Shown here one piece after another: positions 36,019-64,000 of a stretch of 64,000 bases of DNA; the stretch's first letter is position 1; each line of letters begins with the position of its first letter. Source of the DNA: Acidobacteriota bacterium (GTDB lineage: Bacteria; Acidobacteriota; Vicinamibacteria; Vicinamibacterales; UBA2999); NCBI GenBank assembly GCA_030650395.1, contig JAUSDY010000042.1:1-64000 (forward strand), read 5' to 3'. The translations under genes were made by a program, and so were the position numbers. Below the pieces are notes generated by a model, which was not told where the DNA came from, ran no database searches, and worked only from the letters and a program-made list of their open reading frames with translations.

Positions 36019-36032
36019 GGGGAATAATCCCC
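36019..36032. promoter_or_regulatory. Activator-type palindrome GGGGAATAATCCCC
   Basis: The arms GGGGA and TCCCC flank ATAA. It lies 33 bp upstream of the sigma-54-type promoter of the cytochrome c-multicopper oxidase operon, which is closer than in the other examples. Confidence 0.45.
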
Positions 36033-36129: not shown

Positions 36130-36540
36130 ATGATCAGACATGTCCTCGTCGCCTCGGCAATCCTCGCGTTTTCCGCTGGCGCCGCGATCGCGCAGCCAAA
36201 GATCGAGAAAGGGCCAATCAAACCGGTCGCCGCCTCGGACGCACCGTTGATGTTCAGCACCTACTGCGCCGTCTGTCATGGCAAGGAAGGCAAAGGCAAC
36301 GGCCCGGCCGCGGCCGCGCTCGCGAAGGTCCCGGCAGATCTCACACGGATAAGCGCGCGGAATGGAGGCAAGTTTCCGGACGTCAGGGTCAGGCGCTATA
36401 TCGAAGGGCTTGACGAGGTTGCGGCACACGGCACGCGAGACATGCCGATGTGGGGGGGCCTGTTCAACGCGCTGAGCCGCGACACCGCCCAGCTGCGCGT
36501 GGCGGCGCTGGCCGACTACGTCAAGTCGCTGCAGCAGTAA
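36130..36540 (+). CDS. Small periplasmic cytochrome c
   Basis: A 136-residue class I cytochrome c with signal peptide (ending AIAQ near residue 22), heme motif CAVCH and Met ligand region RDMPMWGGLF. AAAGGAGG precedes the ATG. It lies 68 bp upstream of a multicopper oxidase and is probably its redox partner, passing electrons to or from the copper enzyme (inference). Confidence 0.9.
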   Translation: MIRHVLVASAILAFSAGAAIAQPKIEKGPIKPVAASDAPLMFSTYCAVCHGKEGKGNGPAAAALAKVPADLTRISARNGGKFPDVRVRRYIEGLDEVAAHGTRDMPMWGGLFNALSRDTAQLRVAALADYVKSLQQ

Positions 36541-40693: not shown

Positions 40694-40708
40694 TGGCGGC
40701 GTTTTTGC
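40694..40708 (+). promoter_or_regulatory. Sigma-54-type promoter for universal stress protein
   Basis: TGGCGGCGTTTTTGC has both consensus blocks at correct spacing. The predicted start is about 9 nt before ATG 40729. Confidence 0.5.
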
Positions 40709-40728: not shown

Positions 40729-41634
40729 ATGACCGCCCGCCCGTTACTGCTCTGTCCGATAGATTTTTCCAGCGCATCGCGCGCCGCGCTGCGGCACGCC
40801 CTGGCGATCGCCGATCACTTCAGCATGCGACTGCTGCTCTTGACGGTCGATGATCCGATCCTCGAAGCCGCGGGCGATGCGAAACTGGGCGCCGGATGGA
40901 ACCGCCGTGTCAGCGAGCGCGAGCTACGGCTCCTCCTCGCGGAAACGCTGGGGCCGCATCCATCCCCTCGCGATGTGGAGGTCGAGGTCGTCACAGGGAA
41001 GCCGGCGGTGGAGATCCTGCGCATCGCGCGAGAGCCCAGGTGCCTGGCGATCGTGATGAGCACGCACGGCCGATCGGGCCCGAGGAAGTTGTTCTTTGGG
41101 TCGACGGCGGAACGCGTGCTGCGTGAGACCACGGTGCCGGTGCTGTTGACCCCGGCCGACGACGGGGGAGCGATTTCGATCGATGCGCTGACGCGCTCAG
41201 GGGCGCCCGTGCTGGTGCCGGTCGATCTGAGCGGCGCGAGCGCACGCCAGCTGGAGTACGCGCGGACGATCGCGGCCGTGCTGAAGCTGCCGCTGCTGCT
41301 CGCGCACATCGTCGAGCCGCTCCACCCGCCGGCGGAGCTCGACCTGCCCGAACTGACTGCAGAACGACTGCTTCGTGCCCGGGTTGCCATCGCCGCGCTC
41401 ACCAACGCGACGCCGCTGTCGACGCCGCGAGACTCGGTGATCGAGGTCGGCGATGCGGCCGGCGCGATTGCACGCCTTGCGCGCGATCGCCACGCCGGTT
41501 TGATGGTGATCGGCCTCCACGGGTCGCAGTCGTTTGGCCCCCGCATGGGATCGGTGACCTACCGGGTGCTGTGCCAGGCGCCAGTGCTGACGCTGGCCCT
41601 GCCGCCGGAGTGGAACCCGTCTGGCTTCAACTGA
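40729..41634 (+). CDS. Tandem-domain universal stress protein
   Basis: A 301-residue protein with two Usp domains (about 1-150 and 160-300). The first has the ATP-binding type motif STHGRSGPRKLFFGSTAERVL. The second has LHGSQSFGPRMGSVTYRVL. It starts LLLCPIDFS. Such proteins act in hypoxic and stationary survival. ATG 40729 is chosen; a TTG at 40705 lies inside the promoter. Its stop overlaps the convergent gene by 8 bp. Confidence 0.88.
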   Translation: MTARPLLLCPIDFSSASRAALRHALAIADHFSMRLLLLTVDDPILEAAGDAKLGAGWNRRVSERELRLLLAETLGPHPSPRDVEVEVVTGKPAVEILRIAREPRCLAIVMSTHGRSGPRKLFFGSTAERVLRETTVPVLLTPADDGGAISIDALTRSGAPVLVPVDLSGASARQLEYARTIAAVLKLPLLLAHIVEPLHPPAELDLPELTAERLLRARVAIAALTNATPLSTPRDSVIEVGDAAGAIARLARDRHAGLMVIGLHGSQSFGPRMGSVTYRVLCQAPVLTLALPPEWNPSGFN

Positions 41635-42160
41635 CCGGGCGCGTGAACACAGTGCCGACGGCTGCAATCAGTCCGAACGATAACATCCACGCGATCACGC
41701 AGACGGCGACCGCCCGCCACGTGGTCGTGTAATCGAGCGCCTGCCGGACGGCAATGACCGTTGCGGCGATCATCCACAGCGAGACCAGGCCGAAGACGAA
41801 TGGGGCCACCGCCGGCATCGCCGCGAGGGCATAGAGCGTTCCGGGCGCGGCCGCAAAGCCGATTGAGCGCAACAACTCGCTCGGGTTGCTGCGGGTCTGC
41901 GGCTCCGGCAGCAGCCGCGTGCCGATGGCGGTAATCAGCATCGCCCACACGACCCACCACCCAAGCATCATCGCCATCGCGATGGCAAAGCCGGGAGAGC
42001 CGGCGATGCTGAGGCTTTTAGCCGCGAATGCGCCAGCAGCGCACGCCAGCGCGATGACGAGAATCGCGGAGGCGCCGGCGCGCCGGTCTGACTCGATGTC
42101 CTCGTAGGCGCCGGCATCGAGCATCAGCGCGCCGATGAAACGACGCACGAAGAGGGTCAT
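41627..42160 (-). CDS. YIP1-family membrane protein
   Basis: A 177-residue protein with five hydrophobic segments. The pattern (RRFIGALMLDAGAYEDIESD, SIGFAAAPGTLYALA, VRQALDYTTTWRAVAV) is typical of bacterial YIP1-like proteins of unknown role. It lies 12 bp downstream of the DUF2383 gene, likely one operon. Confidence 0.65.
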   Translation of the reverse strand: MTLFVRRFIGALMLDAGAYEDIESDRRAGASAILVIALACAAGAFAAKSLSIAGSPGFAIAMAMMLGWWVVWAMLITAIGTRLLPEPQTRSNPSELLRSIGFAAAPGTLYALAAMPAVAPFVFGLVSLWMIAATVIAVRQALDYTTTWRAVAVCVIAWMLSFGLIAAVGTVFTRPVS

Positions 42161-42748: not shown

Positions 42749-42782
42749 GGGGATTTCCCCGGGTTTCGCGGGGAAACTCCCC
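42749..42782. promoter_or_regulatory. Pair of activator-type palindromes between divergent operons
   Basis: GGGGATTTCCCC (42749-42760, perfect arms) and GGGGAAACTCCCC (42770-42782) form the clearest pair of this type. They are 21 bp apart, on the same face of the helix. They lie 65-100 bp upstream of the strong sigma-54 promoter at 42846 and 50-100 bp from the one at 42697. Confidence 0.6.
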
Positions 42783-42845: not shown

Positions 42846-42860
42846 TGGCACGGCTGTTGC
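42846..42860 (+). promoter_or_regulatory. Consensus sigma-54 promoter
   Basis: TGGCACGGCTGTTGC is a full match to TGGCACG-N4-TTGC. The following CCTT is shared with the promoter at 54385. The predicted start is about 3 nt before ATG 42875. Confidence 0.75.
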
Positions 42861-42874
42861 CCTTACAGGATTAG

Positions 42875-44917
42875 ATGACCATCGTGACCGCACCCCCGTT
42901 GCCCGTCGAAGAGTCCGATCCGCGCGCTTATCTCCGCGACGGCAGCGTCGCTGTGCTCCGCGTCAGCCGGCCGGCAGACCAGAACGCGCTGCGGCGTTTT
43001 TTCCACGAGCTGTCGCCCGGCTCGCGGCAGTCCCGCTTCTTCAGTCTGGCGGAACCGGCCGAGACGCTCATCGACGCATTCTGCGATTCGAGCGACCCCA
43101 CGCGTCAGGCGACCGTGGTCGCGGTTCGCCTGGAAGACGAAGGGCTTCGACCCGTTGCCGTAGGCTCCTATCTCGACCTCGGTAACGGCGTAGCGGAGGC
43201 TGCATTCGCCGTCGCCGATGCGGTCCAGGGCAGGGGACTCGGGACGATTCTCCTCCAGCGGCTTGCGAAGCTCGCCGCGGCGAATGGGTTCCGGCGCTTC
43301 AACGCGATCGTTCTCTGCGAGAACACGGCGATGCTCGACGTGTTCCGTGCGTCCGGGTTTCAGATCGGATCGAAGACCCAGCACGGCGTCGTGACCGTTG
43401 CTCTAGCACTCGGCCCGCCAGATGCCCGTCCAGCTCGAAATATTGCACCGCCCGTGGGAAGATATTTCGAGAATCCCATGTTGTTCGCGCTGCTCATTGT
43501 TTGCGTGCTCGTTCCCGGCTCCACATGGGCGCAGTCATTTGCGCCGCCCGGATGGAGCGACGGACTGAAATTGAATGAACCGGCCGACCTCAACCCGGAT
43601 CCGCGCATTGTCGAGGTCAATCTCACGGCGAGGCTCGCGGACGTCGAGATCGCCCCGGGCAAGCGCGTGCACGCCTGGACCTACAACGGCGGCTTGCCCG
43701 GCCCGCTGATCAAGACGCGAGTCGGCGATCGCTTGATCGTTCACTTCACGAACGAGCTGAAGGATCCGACGACGGTGCATTGGCACGGGGTGCGCGTGCC
43801 GATCGAGATGGACGGCGTACCGGGCGTCTCGCAGGAAGAAGTGAAGCAGGGTGACTCGTTCACCTACGACTTCGTGGTTCGCGATGCCGGGTTGTATTGG
43901 TATCACCCGCACGTCATGTCGGCTGCGCAAGTTGGCTTCGGTCTCTACGGCGCGCTGCTCGTCGAAGATCCCGACGACGGCGTTGGCGTGGCGGATCAAG
44001 TCACGATCGTGTTGAGCGACATCGGGTTCGACGCGAAGGGCCGGCTTGAGCCCGCGGAGAGCGGCGGGTCCGCAGGAATGGTGTTCGGCCGCGAAGGGGC
44101 GTACGTGCTGGCCAACGGCCGGACGAAACCCGTTCTGCGCGCTCGGCCGGGCGCGCCGCAGCGCTGGCGCATCGTCAACGCCTCAAAGAGCCGCTACTTC
44201 TATCTCGATCTGGAGGGGCAGGCGATGACGGTGATCGGCGGCGACGGCGGCCTTCAGGAGCGTGCGGTCACGACCGACATCCTGCTGATCACCGCCGGTG
44301 AGCGCGCCGATGTGATCGTCAGCCCGAAGGGCAAGTCCGGCACGCCATTGATGCTGCGCGCCATGCTTTACAACCGTGGTTACGGCAGCGTCGAGTACCG
44401 CAGTGTCGAAGAAGTGCTGACGATCGAGTTCACCAAAGAAGCGCCGGTCACCAAGACCGCGCCCGTGACGGTGGGCCGCGCCATTCCACGTCTGTCTGCC
44501 GCCGGCGCGACGCCGGTGAACATCGAGCTGACGCTACCGCCGATGGAACACTTCAAGTCGGAGTTTCGTGTGAACGGCGTCCCGTTCTGGAAGGCGAAGC
44601 CTTATCTGGCGAAGCTTGGCGAGACGCAGCTGTGGATCGTCAGGAACGACACCGACTGGGACCATCCGTTCCACCTGCACGGCTTCTTCTTCCAGGTCGT
44701 CAATGAGAAGGGCGAGCCCGTCGGGCCGCTGGCGTGGAAAGACACGGTGAACGTCCCGATGAAAACGACGGCGCGGTTCCTCGTGAAGTTCGACGAACGT
44801 CCAGGCGAGTGGATGTTCCACTGCCATATCCTGGATCACGCCGACGGCGGACTAATGGGCACGGTCCTCGTCGGGCCCGTGTCGCCCTCCACCCACGTCC
44901 ACACGAAGAAACAGTAG
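42875..44917 (+). CDS. GNAT acetyltransferase fused in frame to a multicopper oxidase
   Basis: One open frame of 680 codons. Residues about 1-182 form a GNAT domain (AFAVADAVQGRGLGTILLQR, LCENTAMLDVFRASGF) like that at the N-terminus of GNAT-acyl-CoA synthetases. At residue 202 a full signal peptide begins (MLFALLIVCVLVPGSTWAQ), then a multicopper oxidase with HWHGVR, WYHPHV, HPFHLHGF and HCHILDHADGG. An exported domain behind a cytosolic one is hard to reconcile, so either ATG 43478 starts a separate 479-residue oxidase or the fusion is recent. TCGAAATAT and ATATTTCGA arms flank the junction. A consensus sigma-54 promoter lies upstream. Confidence 0.75.
   Translation: MTIVTAPPLPVEESDPRAYLRDGSVAVLRVSRPADQNALRRFFHELSPGSRQSRFFSLAEPAETLIDAFCDSSDPTRQATVVAVRLEDEGLRPVAVGSYLDLGNGVAEAAFAVADAVQGRGLGTILLQRLAKLAAANGFRRFNAIVLCENTAMLDVFRASGFQIGSKTQHGVVTVALALGPPDARPARNIAPPVGRYFENPMLFALLIVCVLVPGSTWAQSFAPPGWSDGLKLNEPADLNPDPRIVEVNLTARLADVEIAPGKRVHAWTYNGGLPGPLIKTRVGDRLIVHFTNELKDPTTVHWHGVRVPIEMDGVPGVSQEEVKQGDSFTYDFVVRDAGLYWYHPHVMSAAQVGFGLYGALLVEDPDDGVGVADQVTIVLSDIGFDAKGRLEPAESGGSAGMVFGREGAYVLANGRTKPVLRARPGAPQRWRIVNASKSRYFYLDLEGQAMTVIGGDGGLQERAVTTDILLITAGERADVIVSPKGKSGTPLMLRAMLYNRGYGSVEYRSVEEVLTIEFTKEAPVTKTAPVTVGRAIPRLSAAGATPVNIELTLPPMEHFKSEFRVNGVPFWKAKPYLAKLGETQLWIVRNDTDWDHPFHLHGFFFQVVNEKGEPVGPLAWKDTVNVPMKTTARFLVKFDERPGEWMFHCHILDHADGGLMGTVLVGPVSPSTHVHTKKQ
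43435..43470. promoter_or_regulatory. Inverted repeat at the GNAT/oxidase junction
   Basis: TCGAAATAT (43435-43443) and ATATTTCGA (43462-43470) are perfect 9-bp arms 18 bp apart, lying 8 bp before the internal ATG of the oxidase. GGGAAGATATTTC within it resembles the activator sites. It may be the original control region of the oxidase gene. Confidence 0.4.
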
Positions 44918-54304: not shown

Positions 54305-54338
54305 GCGGGAGATTTCCCTCGTCAGAGCGAAAGATTCC
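54305..54338. promoter_or_regulatory. Pair of activator-type palindromes
   Basis: GGGAGATTTCCC (54305-54316) and GCGAAAGATTCCCC (54325-54338) lie about 50-80 bp upstream of the sigma-54 promoter of the P-type ATPase. Confidence 0.55.
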
Positions 54339-54384
54339 CCACTACGGCGAATCGGTTTCGGGGCGTGCAGATGCCCAAGTACGG

Positions 54385-54399
54385 TGGCATGCCCGTTGC
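54385..54399 (+). promoter_or_regulatory. Sigma-54 promoter for P-type ATPase
   Basis: TGGCATGCCCGTTGC matches the -24/-12 consensus. With the flanks GG before and CCTT after, it is very similar to the promoter at 42846. The predicted start is about 3 nt before GTG 54414. Confidence 0.65.
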
Positions 54400-54413
54400 C
54401 CTTGAACGGGTCT

Positions 54414-56267
54414 GTGCAGCTGAGAGCCGTCCGTCACAATACCACGCTCATTGCGAGTTTCTGTCTCGCCGCCATCGCCGCACACCTGTTATTACGCTTT
54501 GGCGTGCAGGCCAGCCGGTCGACCGCAAACGTGCCGTTGTTGGCGGCCATCGTGCTCGGGGGCACGCCGCTGCTGTACGGGTTGCTGCGGAAGTTTCTGC
54601 ACCGCGAATTCGGCTCTGACCTGCTGGGCGGCATTGCGGTCGTGACGTCGGTGTGGCTGGGCGAGTATCTGGCCGGCTCGATCATCGTGCTGATGCTGTC
54701 TGGCGGCGAGGCGCTCGAAAGCTACGCGGTGCGGAGCGCTTCGTCCGTTCTGGCAGCGCTGGCCCGGCGTGTTCCCGCCGTCGCGCACCGCCGATCGGCG
54801 AGCGGCATCGAAGATATCGCGCTCGACGAGGTTGCCGTCGGCGACACGCTCGTAATCTACCCGCACGAGATCTGCCCGGTTGACGGCACGGTGCTCGATG
54901 GGCACGGCGTGATGGATGAGTCGTACCTGACCGGCGAGCCGTTCGAGATCACCAAGACGCGCGGGTCGACGGTGATCTCGGGCGCGGTCAACGGTGCGTC
55001 TGCTCTCACGATCCAGACGACACGACGCGCCGCCGATTCGCGCTACGCGAAGATCATGCTGGTGATGCGCGAGTCCGAGCAGAGCCGGCCGCGGCTGCGT
55101 CGGCTCGGCGATCGCCTCGGAGCAATTTATACGCCGGTGGCGCTTGGCGTCGCGCTGGCGGCGTGGGGCCTGAGCGGCGATGCCACCAGGTTCCTGGCCG
55201 TGCTCGTCATCGCGACACCGTGCCCGCTGCTGATCGCGATTCCGGTCGCGATCGTCGGCTCGATCTCGCTGTGCGCGCGGCGGGCGATCATCGTGAAGAG
55301 TCCCGTCGTGCTCGAGCAGATCGCGACGTGCCGCACCGCGATCTTCGACAAGACCGGCACGCTGACCTACGGCGAGCCGACGCTGACCGACGTGATGCTC
55401 GCGCCGGGCCGCTCGCGCCGCGAGGTCGTCGCGCTGGCGGCCAGCGTGGAGCGCTACTCGAAACATCCCCTCGCGGTGGCCCTGCTCGATGCCGCGTCGG
55501 CCGAGGATGTCGCGCTCGTCGACGCGACGGAGGTCACCGAGCCGCCTGGCGAGGGTCTGCGGGGCATTGTGGGCGGCCGTCACGTCCGCATTGCCAGCCG
55601 AGTGAAGGTGCTGGCCGAGGATCCGTCGGCGGCGGCGCTCTTCCCGCCCATCGCGGGCGGACTCGAGTGTGTGGTCGCGGTCGACGGCCGTTACGCGGCG
55701 ACGCTCCGGTTTCGCGACGCCCCGCGACCCGAGAGCCGCTCGTTCGTGGAGCACCTGGGTCCAAAGCACCAGTTCCGCAAGACGATGATCGTGTCGGGCG
55801 ATCGGGAGTCGGAGGTCCGTTACCTGGCGGAGCAAGTCGGCGTGAGCGAAGTGCACGCGCAGCAAAGCCCCGAACAGAAACTGGCCTTGGTGCGGCGTGA
55901 AACCACCGCCGCCAACACCCTCTATGTCGGCGACGGCATCAACGACGCGCCGGCCATGATGGCGGCCACGGTCGGCATCGCGATCGGCGAGCACAGCGAT
56001 GTCACTGCCGAAGCCGCCGGCGTGGTCGTGATGGAGAACTCGCTGAAGAAGATCGACGAGTTCATGCACATCAGCCGGCGGATGCGATCGATCGCGCTGC
56101 AGAGCGCGGTGGGCGGCATGGCGCTCAGCATCGTGGGCATGGCGCTGGCGTCAGCCGGATGGCTGAGCCCGGTGAGCGGCGCACTCGCGCAAGAAGCGAT
56201 CGATGTGCTCGCCGTATTGAACGCGCTCCGCGCGGCGTTTCCCCCTGCCGTCATTCACGATTTCTGA
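54414..56267 (+). CDS. Heavy-metal P1B-type ATPase without N-terminal metal domain
   Basis: A 617-residue metal-translocating ATPase. It has the TGE loop (MDESYLTGEPFEI), the membrane metal motif TPCPL, the phosphorylation site FDKTGTLTYG, the P1B hallmark SKHPLAV and the hinge VGDGINDAPAM. No HMA domain precedes the first helix. TPC rather than CPC leaves the metal uncertain. GTG 54414 is preferred because an upstream ATG at 54384 lies in the sigma-54 promoter. Expression with stress proteins suggests metal homeostasis under low oxygen (inference). Confidence 0.88.
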   Translation: MQLRAVRHNTTLIASFCLAAIAAHLLLRFGVQASRSTANVPLLAAIVLGGTPLLYGLLRKFLHREFGSDLLGGIAVVTSVWLGEYLAGSIIVLMLSGGEALESYAVRSASSVLAALARRVPAVAHRRSASGIEDIALDEVAVGDTLVIYPHEICPVDGTVLDGHGVMDESYLTGEPFEITKTRGSTVISGAVNGASALTIQTTRRAADSRYAKIMLVMRESEQSRPRLRRLGDRLGAIYTPVALGVALAAWGLSGDATRFLAVLVIATPCPLLIAIPVAIVGSISLCARRAIIVKSPVVLEQIATCRTAIFDKTGTLTYGEPTLTDVMLAPGRSRREVVALAASVERYSKHPLAVALLDAASAEDVALVDATEVTEPPGEGLRGIVGGRHVRIASRVKVLAEDPSAAALFPPIAGGLECVVAVDGRYAATLRFRDAPRPESRSFVEHLGPKHQFRKTMIVSGDRESEVRYLAEQVGVSEVHAQQSPEQKLALVRRETTAANTLYVGDGINDAPAMMAATVGIAIGEHSDVTAEAAGVVVMENSLKKIDEFMHISRRMRSIALQSAVGGMALSIVGMALASAGWLSPVSGALAQEAIDVLAVLNALRAAFPPAVIHDF

Positions 56268-56350: not shown

Positions 56351-56453
56351 TGCCGCGGTGACCAGGCGTCGGGGGCGCATCGTTCGCGCCAGAGTTCTGC
56401 GGCCTGATTGACGGGAGCGTGCGCCGATTCGTGTCACGAGCGCTACGCCGGTG

Positions 56454-56485
56454 CGGAAACTTCCGCATCGATGGGGAAACTTGCC
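56454..56485. promoter_or_regulatory. Pair of activator-type palindromes
   Basis: CGGAAACTTCCG (56454-56465) and GGGGAAACTTGCC (56473-56485) lie about 80-110 bp upstream of the sigma-54-type promoter of the stress-protein gene. Confidence 0.55.
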
Positions 56486-56562
56486 GTGCTCACCAGGCTT
56501 CGCCGGCCCGGCTCGGACGTGCCTTGGCGGCAACGAGTTGTGCCCTCCCACTCGATTGTGTC

Positions 56563-56577
56563 TGGCATGGGTTGTGC
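56563..56577 (+). promoter_or_regulatory. Sigma-54-type promoter for stress-protein operon
   Basis: TGGCATGGGTTGTGC keeps TGGCA and GC at the right spacing with one mismatch in the -12 block (GTGC). The leader to ATG 56625 would be about 36 nt. Confidence 0.5.
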
Positions 56578-56624
56578 TGCCCGAACAAGTAGCGGCGCGA
56601 GTGCCGCCCAGTGGTGAGGTTGTC

Positions 56625-57116
56625 ATGGTTGTCCTCAAGAACATCCTGGTGGCGACAGATTTCAGCGAGCCGTCGACCGTGGCGATGGCTTACGGACGGG
56701 ACTTCGCGCGGTCGTATGGCGCAACGCTGCACGTGCTTCACGTCGTGGAAGACGTCACGATGCGGTATAGCCCCGAGATCGCGTTCGCGATCCCGGACCT
56801 GCAGAAAGACTTCGAGAAGGCCTCGAGGCGCGATCTGGACGCGCTGATCACCGCCGACGACAAGCAGACGTTGAAGGTTGTTCCCGTCGTCGAGACGCAT
56901 CTGAACGTCGCCCGCGGCATCACCGACTACGCCAAGGCCAATGCCATCGACCTGATCATCGTCGGCACCCACGGCCGCGGCGCCGTGAAGCAGTTCCTGA
57001 TAGGGAGCGTGGCCGAGCGTGTGGTGCGCACCGCGCCGTGTCCGGTGCTCGCCGTGCGGACGAACGAACGCGAGTTCATCGCGCCCGATGCGCTCGCGAT
57101 TGCGGCGAAAGCGTAG
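56625..57116 (+). CDS. Single-domain universal stress protein
   Basis: A 163-residue Usp with ILVATDFSEPS at the N-terminus and the nucleotide-binding motif GTHGRGAVKQFLIGSVAERV. GAGG lies 6 nt upstream of the ATG. It is 8 bp upstream of the kinase gene, so they form an operon. Confidence 0.92.
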   Translation: MVVLKNILVATDFSEPSTVAMAYGRDFARSYGATLHVLHVVEDVTMRYSPEIAFAIPDLQKDFEKASRRDLDALITADDKQTLKVVPVVETHLNVARGITDYAKANAIDLIIVGTHGRGAVKQFLIGSVAERVVRTAPCPVLAVRTNEREFIAPDALAIAAKA

Positions 57117-57124
57117 CGGGCTCG

Positions 57125-58690
57125 ATGATCACCGAAGACCAAACGGCCGTCGTGACTTTTCTCGCCGCGCCCTCCACGCATGGCGGCGTCGCGGTGGAGC
57201 GGATCGACACGCACGCGGCGGTCGTCTTCCTGGCGGGCGATCGCGCCTTCAAGCTCAAGCGCGCGGTTTGTTACGACTACCTCGATTTTTCGACGGTCGA
57301 GCAGCGCCGGGAGATGTGCGAGGCCGAGGTGCGAATCAATCGTCGTACCGCGCCGGCGCTCTATCGCGGTGTCGTCGCGGTCACCCGCGAGGCCGATGAA
57401 TCGCTGGCGTTTGGCGGATCCGGCGCGCCGGTGGACTGGGTCATCGAGATGACCCGCTTCGATCAGGACGGTCTCTTCGATCGGCTGGCCGCGCGCGGAG
57501 CGCTCGGTCTCGAGCTCATGGCGCCGTTGGGGGCCGCCATCGCCCGGTTCCATAACGGCGCCGGGTCCCGGTTCGATCATGGTGGACGCGCCGGAATGGC
57601 GTGGGTCGTCAACGGCAACGCCGAGGGATTGACGAGCGAGGGCACGGGCATTCTGCCGCGAAACGGGTGCGCCACCATAACCAGCAACACTCGGTATGCG
57701 CTCGATCTTCAGAGCGATCTGCTGGATGCGCGGCGCAACGCCGGGTTGGTGCGCGACTGCCACGGCGATCTGCATCTGCGCAACATCGTGCTGATCGACG
57801 GCCGGCCGACGCTGTTCGACGCCATCGAGTTCAACGACGAGATCGCGTGCATCGACGTGCTCTACGATCTGTCGTTCCTGCTGATGGATCTCTGGCGCAG
57901 GCAATTGCCGGAACATGCCAACCATGTCTGGAACGCCTACCTGGCCGAGACGGTGGACCTCGACGGCCTGCCCTTGTTGCCGCTATTCCTGTCGTGCCGC
58001 GCGGCGGTCAGGGCGAAGACCAGCGCGGCGGCCGCGAGGGTGCAGGTTGATGTGACTCGCCGGGCCGGCCTGGAAACGCTGGCGCGCGATTACCTCGCGA
58101 TGGCGGGGAGACTGCTGCAGTCATCACCGCCGTGCCTGATCGCCGTCGGAGGGTTTTCCGGATCCGGCAAGTCATCACTGGCACTGGCGCTCGCGCCTTC
58201 GCTCGGCGGCGTCCCGGGCGCCGTCGTGATCCGCAGCGACGACGTGCGGAAGCGGCTGTGCGGCGTCAAGCCACTTGATCATCTTGGGCCCGAGAGTTAC
58301 ACGGCCGGCGTGAACGATCGCGTCTACGCCGCCGCCGCCGGGCTTGCCGGCGCGGTCGTCCGCGGCGGATATGTGGCGATCGTCGACGCGGTGTTCGGGC
58401 GGCCGGCCGATCGCGACGCGATTCGCCGCACGGCGTCTGCCGCGGGCGTGCAATTCGCCGGCGTGTGGCTGGATGCGCCCGAGCCGGTCCTGATCGTGCG
58501 GGCCGAGGCGCGCCGTGCCGATCCGTCGGACGCCGACGCGACCGTGATTCGACGCCAGCTCGCCGAGCCGACGGGCGCGATCGACTGGCAGCGGCTCGAC
58601 GCGTCGGTGCCGATGGCGGGTGTGCGCGAGGCCGCGACGGCGCTGTTGAGCGAGGCGCACATCGCCGCTTCACCAGGCTCGATGCGCTGA
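57125..58690 (+). CDS. Bifunctional phosphotransferase-like / P-loop kinase protein
   Basis: A 521-residue protein. The N-terminal two thirds resemble aminoglycoside-phosphotransferase-type kinases (catalytic loop CHGDLHLRNIVLID, then FDAIEFNDEIACIDVLYDLS). The C-terminal part is an AAA_33-type P-loop domain with GGFSGSGKSSLAL and IRSDDVRKRL. This fusion is common next to universal stress proteins in hypoxia-induced gene sets; its substrate is unknown. It follows the Usp gene and precedes a broken ATPase gene. Confidence 0.82.
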   Translation: MITEDQTAVVTFLAAPSTHGGVAVERIDTHAAVVFLAGDRAFKLKRAVCYDYLDFSTVEQRREMCEAEVRINRRTAPALYRGVVAVTREADESLAFGGSGAPVDWVIEMTRFDQDGLFDRLAARGALGLELMAPLGAAIARFHNGAGSRFDHGGRAGMAWVVNGNAEGLTSEGTGILPRNGCATITSNTRYALDLQSDLLDARRNAGLVRDCHGDLHLRNIVLIDGRPTLFDAIEFNDEIACIDVLYDLSFLLMDLWRRQLPEHANHVWNAYLAETVDLDGLPLLPLFLSCRAAVRAKTSAAAARVQVDVTRRAGLETLARDYLAMAGRLLQSSPPCLIAVGGFSGSGKSSLALALAPSLGGVPGAVVIRSDDVRKRLCGVKPLDHLGPESYTAGVNDRVYAAAAGLAGAVVRGGYVAIVDAVFGRPADRDAIRRTASAAGVQFAGVWLDAPEPVLIVRAEARRADPSDADATVIRRQLAEPTGAIDWQRLDASVPMAGVREAATALLSEAHIAASPGSMR

Positions 58691-60701: not shown

Positions 60702-61190
60702 TTACCGTCTCAGGGTTGATATGGCGCTGACGGCGTCACGCAGGACACCGATGATCACATCCGATTGGACATCCCGCACCACCAGGTCGCGGCCGATCAG
60801 CCGGTATTCGAGCGGTGCCGGTAACACCGGTAGTGCATCCGCCATGACCTCTGGGAATTCGAGTAGCTCGTCGGCGGGAAATGGCTCGAGCACAACGGGA
60901 TGCCGGCGCGGCCAGTTGGCGACGCCGCTCATCGCCGTGCCGGGCGCGCGGTCCTGTAAGGCCTCGACGATGAGCTGCCGGAACACCATCGCCACCGGCA
61001 GCGTGAAGACTCGTGGCGACGGTTCAAGCACGGGCGCATGCACAGGATCGAGGCATTGATAGCGCTCGGCGTAGTTCGCGATGTTCCGGTCGAAATCGCG
61101 AAGGACCCGCGCGCGCTCCTCGACGGTCTGTGCGGCGGCCACGCCTCCGCTCAGCACGATCCCCAGCAAGCCGATGGCGATGATTCTCAT
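60702..61190 (-). CDS. Secreted protein of unknown function (family with 44925-45515)
   Basis: A 162-residue protein with signal peptide (ends GVAAAQ). The C-terminal ALPVLPAPLEYRLIGRDLVV then RDVQSDVIIGVLRDAVSAIS matches the proteins at 44925 and 56277. The N-terminal half differs (helical, RARVLRDFDRNIANYAERYQ). It is the second gene of the operon, 2 bp after its neighbour. The function is unknown. Confidence 0.65.
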   Translation of the reverse strand: MRIIAIGLLGIVLSGGVAAAQTVEERARVLRDFDRNIANYAERYQCLDPVHAPVLEPSPRVFTLPVAMVFRQLIVEALQDRAPGTAMSGVANWPRRHPVVLEPFPADELLEFPEVMADALPVLPAPLEYRLIGRDLVVRDVQSDVIIGVLRDAVSAISTLRR

Positions 61191-61192
61191 GA

Positions 61193-61451
61193 TTACGCTC
61201 TCCGTCTCTCAGGCTTCGCATCTTGGAGAGCATCCTTCGTGCCAAATCGGTACGGTCGCGTCATATCAGTGGCGGCCTCCAGTTGATCGTGGAAACAGGC
61301 GTTCAGGCGGTCGCACGCGTCTGCAGCGGCGCAAATGAGCTGCTTCGATCCAGTGCAGAGCGTGCCGCTCATCGTGGTGTCCCGATACGCCAGGGAAGCG
61401 ACGCGGAGGGCTTGCTGAAGCACGCGCACATCTGCCGCGCTTAAGTTCATT
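61193..61451 (-). CDS. Small protein of unknown function
   Basis: An 85-residue protein starting MNLSAADVRVLQQALRVA with four cysteines, two of them in ICAAADACDRLNACFHD. The frame is open further upstream to 61657, but that part contains the regulatory elements and shows no family features. It is probably helical and small. First gene of the operon 61451-59463. Confidence 0.5.
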
Positions 61452-61499
61452 ACCATGGGCCGGTCTCCAAGTTCGGACGTCAATCCCGCCGGGCGTAAA

Positions 61500-61514
61500 G
61501 CATCTTCAATGCCA
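61500..61514 (-). promoter_or_regulatory. Sigma-54-type promoter for the 61451-59463 operon
   Basis: The minus strand reads TGGCATTGAAGATGC. The -24 block is good; the -12 block is ATGC. The leader would be about 37 nt. Confidence 0.45.
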
Positions 61515-61569
61515 AGAGAGCCAAGGGAGCCTTCGCGAAGCGTGGGCGGGCGCGCCCGTGCCGACGACG

Positions 61570-61602
61570 TGGAAACCTCCACACCGGCTGGGGAATATTT
61601 CC
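61570..61602. promoter_or_regulatory. Pair of activator-type palindromes
   Basis: GTGGAAACCTCCAC (61570-61583) and GGGGAATATTTCC (61590-61602) lie about 55-90 bp upstream of the sigma-54-type promoter at 61514, in the order expected for the minus strand. Confidence 0.5.
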
Positions 61603-61614
61603 TGCCCGACTGGC

Positions 61615-62223
61615 TCACTTTCCCTCGGCGCCCAGGATCCGCATCCGGCGGAGCCACTGCTCTCTCTTCGACCCATCCGTCGCCTCAACAAAGCCGATTA
61701 GCGTTTCCTTCACGGGCGCTGCTCCTCCGAGACGAAGCGCGCTCGCTTCCTGGTGGGGGCGGAAGTACCAGCGATAGACGAAGGCCGGCATCTGCATGGT
61801 CGCCACAACCCGCGCGGTCTTGTCCCTGAGCCTTTTCTGTTCCCTGAACGCGGCTGAGAATCCCAGATGCTCGCCAGGTTTCAAACCCGGGAAGATGAAC
61901 GAGGGACGAAATGTCTGTTCCATGAACGCCCGAAGGAGGGCGGGTGCTCCGCCGTTCCAGATCGGGTGCACCACGACCACGTGGTCGGCCGCGGCGATCG
62001 TCTGCTGCGCCAGTTGGATCTGCGGTGGCGTCTCGTCGTATTCGAGGGCGTTTCGGCTGCGCAGGAATGGCACGTCGAGCGCGGCCACCTCAATCAGATC
62101 GACGTGATGACCTGCGGCGCGCGCGCCGGCCGTGTACGCCTCGGCGAGGGCATTACAGAAGTGGCCGCCCGCCGGGTCGGGGTGGCCCTGGATGAGCGCG
62201 ATTCGCCGACACATTCCGGCCAT
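61615..62223 (-). CDS. NAD(P)H-dependent flavodoxin-like quinone reductase
   Basis: A 202-residue flavodoxin-fold oxidoreductase of the NQO/KefF/MdaB group. It starts RRIALIQGHPDPAGGHFCNAL, has HVVVVHPIWNGGAPALLRAF and FGF-like FSAAFRE. It transfers two electrons from NAD(P)H to quinones with bound flavin. ATG 62223 or 62214 starts it. A TGGCACG promoter block lies directly upstream. Confidence 0.82.
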   Translation of the reverse strand: MAGMCRRIALIQGHPDPAGGHFCNALAEAYTAGARAAGHHVDLIEVAALDVPFLRSRNALEYDETPPQIQLAQQTIAAADHVVVVHPIWNGGAPALLRAFMEQTFRPSFIFPGLKPGEHLGFSAAFREQKRLRDKTARVVATMQMPAFVYRWYFRPHQEASALRLGGAAPVKETLIGFVEATDGSKREQWLRRMRILGAEGK

Positions 62224-62236
62224 GTGAATACCGCGA

Positions 62237-62251
62237 GCATCGTTCGTGCCA
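62237..62251 (-). promoter_or_regulatory. Sigma-54-type promoter for quinone reductase
   Basis: The minus strand reads TGGCACGAACGATGC. The -24 block is perfect and the -12 block is ATGC. The predicted start is about 2 nt before ATG 62223. No activator-type palindrome was seen nearby. Confidence 0.4.
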
Positions 62252-62268
62252 TGGCGGGCAATAGCCAG

Positions 62269-62283
62269 CGGCAACGACTTTGC
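62269..62283 (+). promoter_or_regulatory. Sigma-54-type promoter for the 62310 gene
   Basis: CGGCAACGACTTTGC has TTGC and a good -24 block. The predicted start is about 15 nt before ATG 62310, leaving room for the ribosome binding site. Confidence 0.45.
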
Positions 62284-62797: not shown

Positions 62798-63892
62798 ATG
62801 GCCGACCCAAGCGACACGACGCCAGCCGATCAGCCGGCGCGCGTGGCCGAAGCGCGCTGGCGCGCGGTGATCGACGCCGCCGTCGACGGGATCATCGTGA
62901 TCGATGCCCTCGGCCAAGTCGAGGTCTTCAATTCGGCGGCGCAGCTGATGTTCGGCTACGCAGAGACCGACGTCATCGGGCGCAACGTCAGCATGTTGAT
63001 GCCCGAGCCGGATCACTCCCGCCACGACGGTTACATCAAGCATCACCTCGACACCGGAGAGCGGCGCATCATCGGCATCGGCCGCGCCGTGACCGGCCGG
63101 CGCCGCGACGGCACGACCTTTCCGCTGCACTTGTCGGTCGGCGAGATGACGATCGATGGTGAGAGGCACTTCACAGGCATTCTCCATGACCTGTCGCGCC
63201 GTCACGAGCTCGAGGATCGCCTGCGCGAGGCGACGGCGATGGCGCGGATTGGCGAGATGGCGGCGGTGATCGCGCACGAGGTCAAGAACCCGCTGGCCGC
63301 TGTGCGTGGCGCCATCCAGGTGATCGGCGGCAGGATGCCGGCCGGCAGCGCCGACGCCGCGATCGTCAAGGAGGTCATCGCGCGGCTCGATGGGTTGAAT
63401 GATCTCGTGCAGGACCTGCTCGTCTTCGCGCGGCCACCGGCGCCGAAGCTGGCCCGGACCGATCTGCGGCACGTGCTGGCCGGGGTCGTTGGCCTGCTCA
63501 AACGCGACCCGGCGTTTGCCGCGCTCGAAGTCACGGTCGCGGGGCCGCAGGCGATTGTTTCGGGTGACGCCAACCTGCTCACTATCGTGTTCCAGAACCT
63601 GGTGATCAATGCCGCGCAGGCGATGCAGGGCCGCGGCGTCGTCGACGTAACGATCGCGCCAATCGAAGGCTGGCAGCGGGTCGAAGTGATCGACTGCGGC
63701 CCCGGTATCCCGCCGGAGATCAAGGCCGCCTTGTTCCGGCCGTTCAAGACGACGAAGGCGCGCGGGACCGGCCTGGGGATGGCGACCGCGAAGCGTCTGG
63801 TCGAACTCCACGGCGGCCGCATCGCCGTGTCGTCACCCGACGGCGGCGGCACCACCATCACCGTCGACCTGCCGGCCGCCCCTACGAACTGA
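62798..63892 (+). CDS. FixL-like heme-PAS sensor histidine kinase
   Basis: A 364-residue cytosolic kinase. The PAS domain (about 15-135) closely follows Fix[36 protein letters not shown] and [16 protein letters not shown]. The heme-ligand His of FixL corresponds to H76, and the O2-contacting Arg to R96. The kinase core has the H box AHEVKNPLA (H160), the N box [10 protein letters not shown], and G boxes DCGPGIP and GTGLGMA. No transmembrane segment is seen. It probably senses oxygen or NO. The NtrC-type regulator gene converges and overlaps its end by 11 bp. Confidence 0.9.
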
Positions 63893-64000
63893 TGGGGTGC
63901 CGCTCGAGCTTGAACTTCTCGATGCGGTAGCGGATCTGATCGCGGTTGAGGCCGAGCAGCGTCGCCGCTTTCGTCTGGTTCCACCCGCTCCGCTCGAGTG
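63882..64000 (-). CDS. NtrC-family sigma-54-dependent regulator (C-terminal end)
   Basis: Only the last 38 codons are inside the window. They read [20 protein letters not shown] then [16 protein letters not shown], the Fis-type DNA-binding helix-turn-helix at the end of NtrC-type activators. Its stop overlaps the kinase end, so the pair is convergent. The receiver and AAA+ domains lie beyond the window. It is the best candidate to activate the sigma-54 promoters listed here. Confidence 0.85.

Follow-up and report, generated by a model that had tools for sequence, protein, structure and literature searches.

The DNA analysed here (the window) comprises bases 1-64000 of contig C143, which is 86,803 bases long and belongs to a genome of 5.4 Mb. 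At the end of the window lie two convergent genes whose 3' ends overlap by 11 bp. One encodes a sensor histidine kinase with Pfam matches to PAS, HisKA and HATPase_c. The other, of which only the 3' end falls within the window, encodes an NtrC-type response regulator, and beyond it on the contig lies an orphan receiver, REC2 (Table 1). The named close matches come mostly from metagenome-assembled Acidobacteria.

An island of putative target genes accompanies the pair. It holds universal stress proteins (USPs), single and tandem (at 40705, 45789, 56451, 59463 and 65816), multicopper oxidases (36450 and 42875), a DUF411 protein (40011) and a P-type ATPase (54384). Further members encode cytochrome c, a flavodoxin-fold oxidoreductase (61615), and BON-domain and CoA-ligase-like proteins. 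Inspection of the translations adds cytochrome b and multiheme genes in the 46-54 kb region, and a set of efflux genes of the TolC-CusB-CusA type between 71 and 77 kb. Some of the genes listed lack a sigma-54 site of their own. Two proteins in the window have unusual architectures. The product of 42875-44917 (680 aa) joins a GNAT acetyltransferase, a hydrophobic segment and a multicopper oxidase in an apparent cytoplasm-periplasm fusion, and 57038-58690, right after an island USP gene, encodes a kinase-like protein that matches AAA_33 and the zeta-toxin family.

Table 1. Coordinates of the genes, candidate promoters and candidate enhancers discussed in the text (window numbering, which is also that of contig C143)
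Feature	Position	Strand	Remarks
FixL-type heme-PAS sensor histidine kinase (putative heme)	62798..63892	+	364 aa; PAS about residues 20-142; H76 proximal, R96 distal; H160
NtrC-type sigma-54 response regulator, 3' end in window	63882..64000	-	Whole gene C143 63882-65255, 457 aa
Orphan receiver REC2	C143 65255-65755, outside window	-	166 residues; upstream of the regulator, reading frames abut
Sigma-54 promoter TGGCACGGCTGTTGCC	42846..42861	+	GNAT-multicopper oxidase gene 42875-44917
Sigma-54 promoter TGGCATGCCCGTTGCC	54385..54400	+	P-type ATPase gene 54384-56267
Sigma-54 promoter TGGCATGGGTTGTGCT	56563..56578	+	USP gene; inside called ORF 56451-57116
Sigma-54 promoter TGGCACGAAGGATGCT	61229..61244	-	Gene 60702-61190 (without Pfam match); lacks a good in-register enhancer pair
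Sigma-54-like site TGGCATTGAAGATGCT	61499..61514	-	
Sigma-54 promoter TGGCACGAACGATGCT	62236..62251	-	Flavodoxin-fold oxidoreductase gene 61615-62274; lacks a good enhancer pair
Palindrome, perfect GGGGAATAATCCCC	36019..36032	+	Followed by sigma-54-like site 36066 and cytochrome c gene 36130-36540
Paired enhancer GGGGATTTCCCC / GGGGAAACTCCCC	42749..42782	.	Common to divergent sigma-54 sites 42682(-) and 42846(+)
Paired enhancer	54306..54340	+	Upstream of P-type ATPase gene 54384-56267
Paired enhancer	56453..56486	+	Upstream of USP gene
Paired enhancer	61569..61603	-	Upstream of sigma-54 site 61499-61514

The PAS domain and the transmitter of the kinase

A first-pass annotation, made from the letters of the window, had assigned to the kinase PAS domain the heme histidine and distal arginine of FixL. 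Alignment agrees: H76 (in SRHDGYI) falls on His200 of BjFixL, the heme-iron ligand, and R96 (in RIIGIGR) on Arg220, which forms a hydrogen bond to the bound ligand (PMC10765370). The distal arginine and the hydrophobic pocket residues of FixL are likewise retained. The closest solved structures to the domain are the BjFixL heme domains (E about 1e-39). A structure prediction gives the same picture: the AlphaFold model overlays 1drm, the BjFixL heme domain, with a TM score of 0.92 and an rmsd of 1.3 A, at 53% identity over the modelled domain. Among 20 kinases (this one and 19 relatives 46-76% identical to it) neither H76 nor R96 varies, and both are present in 33 of 33 orthologous PAS rows, a few of which are duplicate records of one genome. 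As far as computation reaches, then, the heme assignment stands, the FixL pocket ligands being kept in every orthologue examined.

The histidine-arginine signature is found in many PAS kinases that lack proof of heme binding. At the position of BjFixL Arg206, this kinase has a histidine, as do those of three of the four sister species. In Sinorhizobium FixL the equivalent change, R200H, leaves the heme spectra near wild type, and R200 variants autoxidise in air (PMC10765370). We infer that the PAS domain would bind heme, with O2 as its ligand.

Could a heme-bearing domain of this kind report something other than low oxygen? It might sense redox state, NO or CO, and the regulon would then answer those signals. 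A precedent exists in Brucella NtrY, a heme-PAS kinase that works with an NtrC-family partner and is described as sensing redox state (PMC7240162), and redox or copper stress would also be in keeping with copper and cytochrome genes among the targets. We nevertheless consider this reading unlikely, because the distal arginine and hydrophobic residues kept in the pocket are those that serve O2 in FixL (PMC10765370). Moreover, passages of a report on another acidobacterium, Acidobacterium capsulatum, describe universal stress genes and one sensor kinase as strongly up at trace O2, and name no regulator that controls the response (PMC11636273).

Outside the sensor, the affinities of the kinase lie elsewhere. 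The FixL equivalog model (NCBIfam NF041777) scores it at 243.7 bits against a curated cut-off of 850, its best stretch covering residues 12-190. The AtoS and ZraS models match the transmitter, with scores far below their curated cut-offs, and the top-scoring solved structure for residues 133-360 is ZraS (9jfj). The phospho-acceptor H160 lies in AHEVKNP, and the transmitter motif reads HEVKNPL; in FixL-like kinases of two alphaproteobacterial records it is HELNQPL, and the adjoining receivers there occupy ORFs of 214-231 codons. Judged by sequence, the transmitter is AtoS/ZraS-like, not FixL-like. NtrC-type regulators are the established partners of AtoS, ZraS and NtrB-class kinases, AtoS and ZraS acting with AtoC and ZraR. 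At several related loci (L044, L046, L047, L049, L051, L052, L055 and L056), one kinase carries FixL-type heme-PAS domains in duplicate, arranged in tandem and each with the histidine and the arginine.

The NtrC-type regulator and the orphan receiver

From the Fis-type helix-turn-helix at its end, the convergent partner had been taken for an NtrC-type regulator whose receiver and AAA+ domains would lie past position 64,000. Both are there. The whole gene matches Response_reg (PF00072), Sigma54_activat (PF00158, 218 bits), AAA_lid (PF25601) and HTH_8 (PF02954), and the GAFTGA loop (GHERGAFTGADRQ) and Walker motifs can be read in its translation. It belongs to none of the NtrC, AtoC and NtrX equivalogs by their cut-offs (407, 462 and 390 bits against 558.6, 714 and 600). 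The genome encodes a single rpoN (one PF04552 match, E 1.8e-65), and about 20 of its proteins match the regulator, the nearest paralogues at 46-48% identity. A FixJ-type partner, with a receiver and a LuxR-type helix-turn-helix, was rejected because no such gene lies beside the kinase, whose neighbours are the NtrC-type regulator and the lone receiver.

The kinase and the regulator travel together. Among nine genomes of the genus, orthologues of both are present in five and absent in four. Sister kinase orthologues are 72-77% identical and regulator orthologues 81-89%, the latter found only in genus members that have the kinase; in the four members without it, the best regulator match reaches just 46-48%. 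At 13 or more loci, the kinase has an NtrC regulator next to it or no more than a few kilobases away. Their arrangement is convergent (L006, L038-L042, L061 and L249), divergent (L055 and L057) or same-strand (L044, in the order kinase-REC2-regulator, L248 and L252). The L252 kinase, 43% identical, comes from a distant family of the phylum. NtrC-adjacent FixL-type PAS kinases were found in Acidobacteria only, in a contig survey that sampled no further than the peptide patterns of a single query could reach.

What ties REC2, which the first-pass annotation had missed, to this pair is a short stretch of its receiver fold. The specificity residues by which receivers recognize their kinases are located in helix alpha-1, which reads DDEPLIRWSL in the regulator and DDEALIRWSV in REC2. 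LIRWS occurs in none of the 13 readable receivers of the other NtrC-type regulators in this genome. In relatives it is nearly always kept in both partners of the heme kinase, a few distant relatives having LVRWS, LIRWT, LLRWS or LIRRA instead. The tandem heme-PAS kinase of locus L056 continues at its C-terminus into a fused LIRWS receiver. Because both carry the LIRWS docking helix, and because a receiver with this helix is fused to the kinase in L056, the regulator and REC2 are both predicted substrates of the kinase. A second REC2 copy on the contig (C143 77800-78285, minus strand; L227:2801-3286) has LIRWS too; it, again, is divergent from a USP gene that has a sigma-54 promoter and an enhancer pair. 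The nearest paralogue of the regulator (46%; G000:C168:29800-36300, L230) has its own HEIKNP kinase and a receiver without LIRWS.

Which of the two receivers is the primary partner is the main uncertainty in the wiring. REC2 may be the chief partner of the kinase, with the regulator taking its signal from a different kinase or, via REC2, from a relay, as in the Myxococcus Nmp network. At seven related loci, the kinase adjoins REC2 or is fused to it (the fusion being that of L056) with no NtrC gene alongside, so REC2 could be the main partner in those relatives. Here this arrangement seems rather unlikely: the regulator shares the docking helix and tracks the presence and absence of the kinase in the genus, and no gene for a hybrid kinase relay was seen beside the regulator. 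Most likely, by analogy, REC2 would be a phosphate buffer or branch, as has been proposed for Myxococcus NmpT (PMC11841059).

Sigma-54 sites and paired palindromes

The first-pass annotation had also described a set of stress, cytochrome and copper genes with sigma-54 promoters, and this set is real: the gene domains matched, and the sites exceed expectation. A generic -24/-12 matrix, applied to 76 kb, gave 13 sites scoring at least 13 (2.4 expected) and 8 scoring at least 15 (1.0 expected). Most of the best-scoring sites immediately precede genes of the 36-71 kb region. The real start of the P-type ATPase gene is probably downstream of the called GTG.

A strict pattern, TGGCAYGNNNNNTGCY, matches the genome at 19 positions. 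Contig C143, which makes up 1.6% of the genome, accounts for 8 of these; the binomial P of 3e-10 for this clustering is optimistic, because the pattern was chosen once the island sites were known. Genome-wide there is no excess (19 matches versus 26 in the control), so that only the clustering on the contig is informative.

Upstream of the sigma-54 sites lie AT-centred palindromes of the form GGGGA-N2-4-TCCCC, which the first-pass annotation had missed. They usually come in twos; about 18-21.5 bp separate the two centres, and the distance to the -24 element is 50-110 bp. We scored pairs in the 150 bp preceding each strict sigma-54 site with available sequence in this genome, its sisters and the kinase-less genomes. 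Pairs were present at 14 of 20 island promoters (5 of 8 in this genome, 9 of 12 in the sisters) against 1 of 54 sites elsewhere, giving a Fisher P of about 1e-9 from counts that are not fully independent because the sister promoters are homologous. The control sites with a pair numbered 0 of 11 in this genome, 0 of 18 in the sister genomes and 1 of 25 in kinase-less genus members, and random windows had one in 1.5% of cases. Sister islands alone, against all controls, give P 6e-8. Three of the eight strict island promoters have no good pair at the standard position. The bare GGGGA-N4-TCCCC, allowing one mismatch, is not selective genome-wide (92 sites versus 63 for the reversed control), and pairing and a nearby sigma-54 site are therefore needed. 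As an alternative enhancer, the NmpR-type GCGCA-N5-TGCGC was rejected: it occurs just once in the first 76 kb of contig C143, at 72041, away from the sigma-54 sites identified here.

We infer that the regulator would bind the paired palindromes. They might instead belong to another enhancer-binding protein or DNA-binding factor, the kinase and regulator controlling something else. With some 20 regulator-matching proteins in the genome, there are other candidates, and the lone control pair comes from G006 (80% complete), in which no kinase was found; it lies before a gene resembling island gene 41627-42160, whose G004 homologue likewise has a pair. We judge this alternative improbable, however, since the pairs concentrate round the regulator in this and the sister genomes and are nearly absent at other sigma-54-like sites and in kinase-less genomes, and since the nearest regulator paralogues are only 46-48% identical.

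Fusions of a USP, a hydrophobic stretch and a cytochrome c-like domain occur twice on the contig, at 68719-69660 (L006:6720-7661) and 78475-79224 (L227:3476-4225). Each follows a sigma-54 promoter and an enhancer pair, and looks like a two-compartment membrane protein.

A candidate hypoxia switch and its relatives

The model that we favour, and think probable, is a hypoxia two-component system in which a heme-PAS kinase acts through an NtrC-type regulator, together with REC2, on paired palindromes to drive a sigma-54 stress-copper-cytochrome regulon. O2 bound to the heme would inhibit the soluble kinase; when oxygen falls, O2 would leave, as it does from FixL, and the kinase would autophosphorylate at H160. 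The phosphoryl group would pass to the convergently encoded regulator and, by the same docking surface, to REC2, which probably buffers or competes for phosphate. On the paired palindromes, the phosphorylated regulator would remodel sigma-54 polymerase, as the promoter anatomy suggests, and so drive the universal stress proteins, multicopper oxidases, P-type ATPase, cytochromes and related genes. The sign of the response, the phosphotransfer and the role of REC2 are, like heme binding and recognition of the palindromes, predicted parts of this scheme. We lean, less firmly, towards its narrower form, an acidobacterial hypoxia switch with a direct single step from heme-PAS kinase to sigma-54 regulator, and REC2 tuning the flow. 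That the PAS domain has the signature and no heme, being merely a dimerisation or linker PAS, is very improbable: the histidine at the Arg206 position, and a signature that by itself is no proof, would allow it, but H76 and R96 stay invariant while identity among the kinases drops to about 46-60%, in a domain with 53% identity to a proven heme domain.

Acidobacteriota are soil bacteria exposed to sharp oxygen swings. The locus, in members of the phylum other than A. capsulatum, presents a complete candidate switch, with named residues, a partner, enhancers and target genes. A low-oxygen gene cluster with universal stress genes is also known from Burkholderia, as the low-oxygen-activated (lxa) locus.

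How does this system compare with those already described? NmpRSTU of Myxococcus xanthus, for which hypoxia induction has been shown, likewise has a soluble heme-dependent kinase (heme being putative here), an NtrC-like sigma-54 regulator, a receiver-only accessory and paired dyad enhancers, and the NmpR regulon is similar in kind to the island, with a USP, a P-type ATPase and an oxidase, cbb3 in that case (PMC11841059). The Nmp sensor, however, is a protoglobin and not a PAS domain; a hybrid kinase, NmpS, stands there between sensor and regulator, whereas a single kinase was found at the present locus (L006); and the enhancer is GCGCA-N5-TGCGC rather than GGGGA-N4-TCCCC. Rhizobial FixL-FixJ shares the heme-PAS domain with the His200 and Arg220 equivalents, and our kinase, like FixL, is predicted to be active in the deoxy state; it differs in its AtoS/ZraS-like transmitter (HEVKNP versus HELNQP), its NtrC-type AAA+ partner and its sigma-54 target promoters. 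The Rhizobium pair hFixL-FxkR also joins a FixL-type sensor to a non-FixJ regulator, but FxkR, reported as no homologue of FixJ, acts on fixK via K-boxes, and a sigma-54 AAA+ partner is not described (PMC7888657). NtrY-NtrX of Brucella and Rhodobacter combines a heme-PAS kinase with an NtrC-family regulator in a low-oxygen role (PMC7240162); NtrY, though, is described as a redox sensor, and our regulator, at 390, falls short of the NtrX cut-off of 600. Escherichia coli AtoS-AtoC and ZraS-ZraR provide the nearest transmitter and regulator models and, in ZraS, the fold (9jfj), but have another input domain and other target genes, and their models score our proteins far under the curated cut-offs.

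Heme-based O2 sensing that leads to an NtrC-like regulator is thus already known with a globin (NmpRSTU), as are a redox heme-PAS route (NtrY-NtrX) and a FixL-type sensor with a non-FixJ regulator (hFixL-FxkR). The pairing of a FixL-type heme-PAS kinase with a sigma-54 AAA+ regulator was not found in the open-access literature searched, which is weak evidence, as most subscription papers lie outside it; within that literature, the direct route from one to the other appears to be new. It would represent a modular re-wiring, in which a FixL heme sensor sits on an AtoS/ZraS-like transmitter and works with a sigma-54 activator, in parallel to the globin Nmp route of Myxococcus, and it makes the partner specificity of heme sensors, and their choice of promoter, open to direct test.
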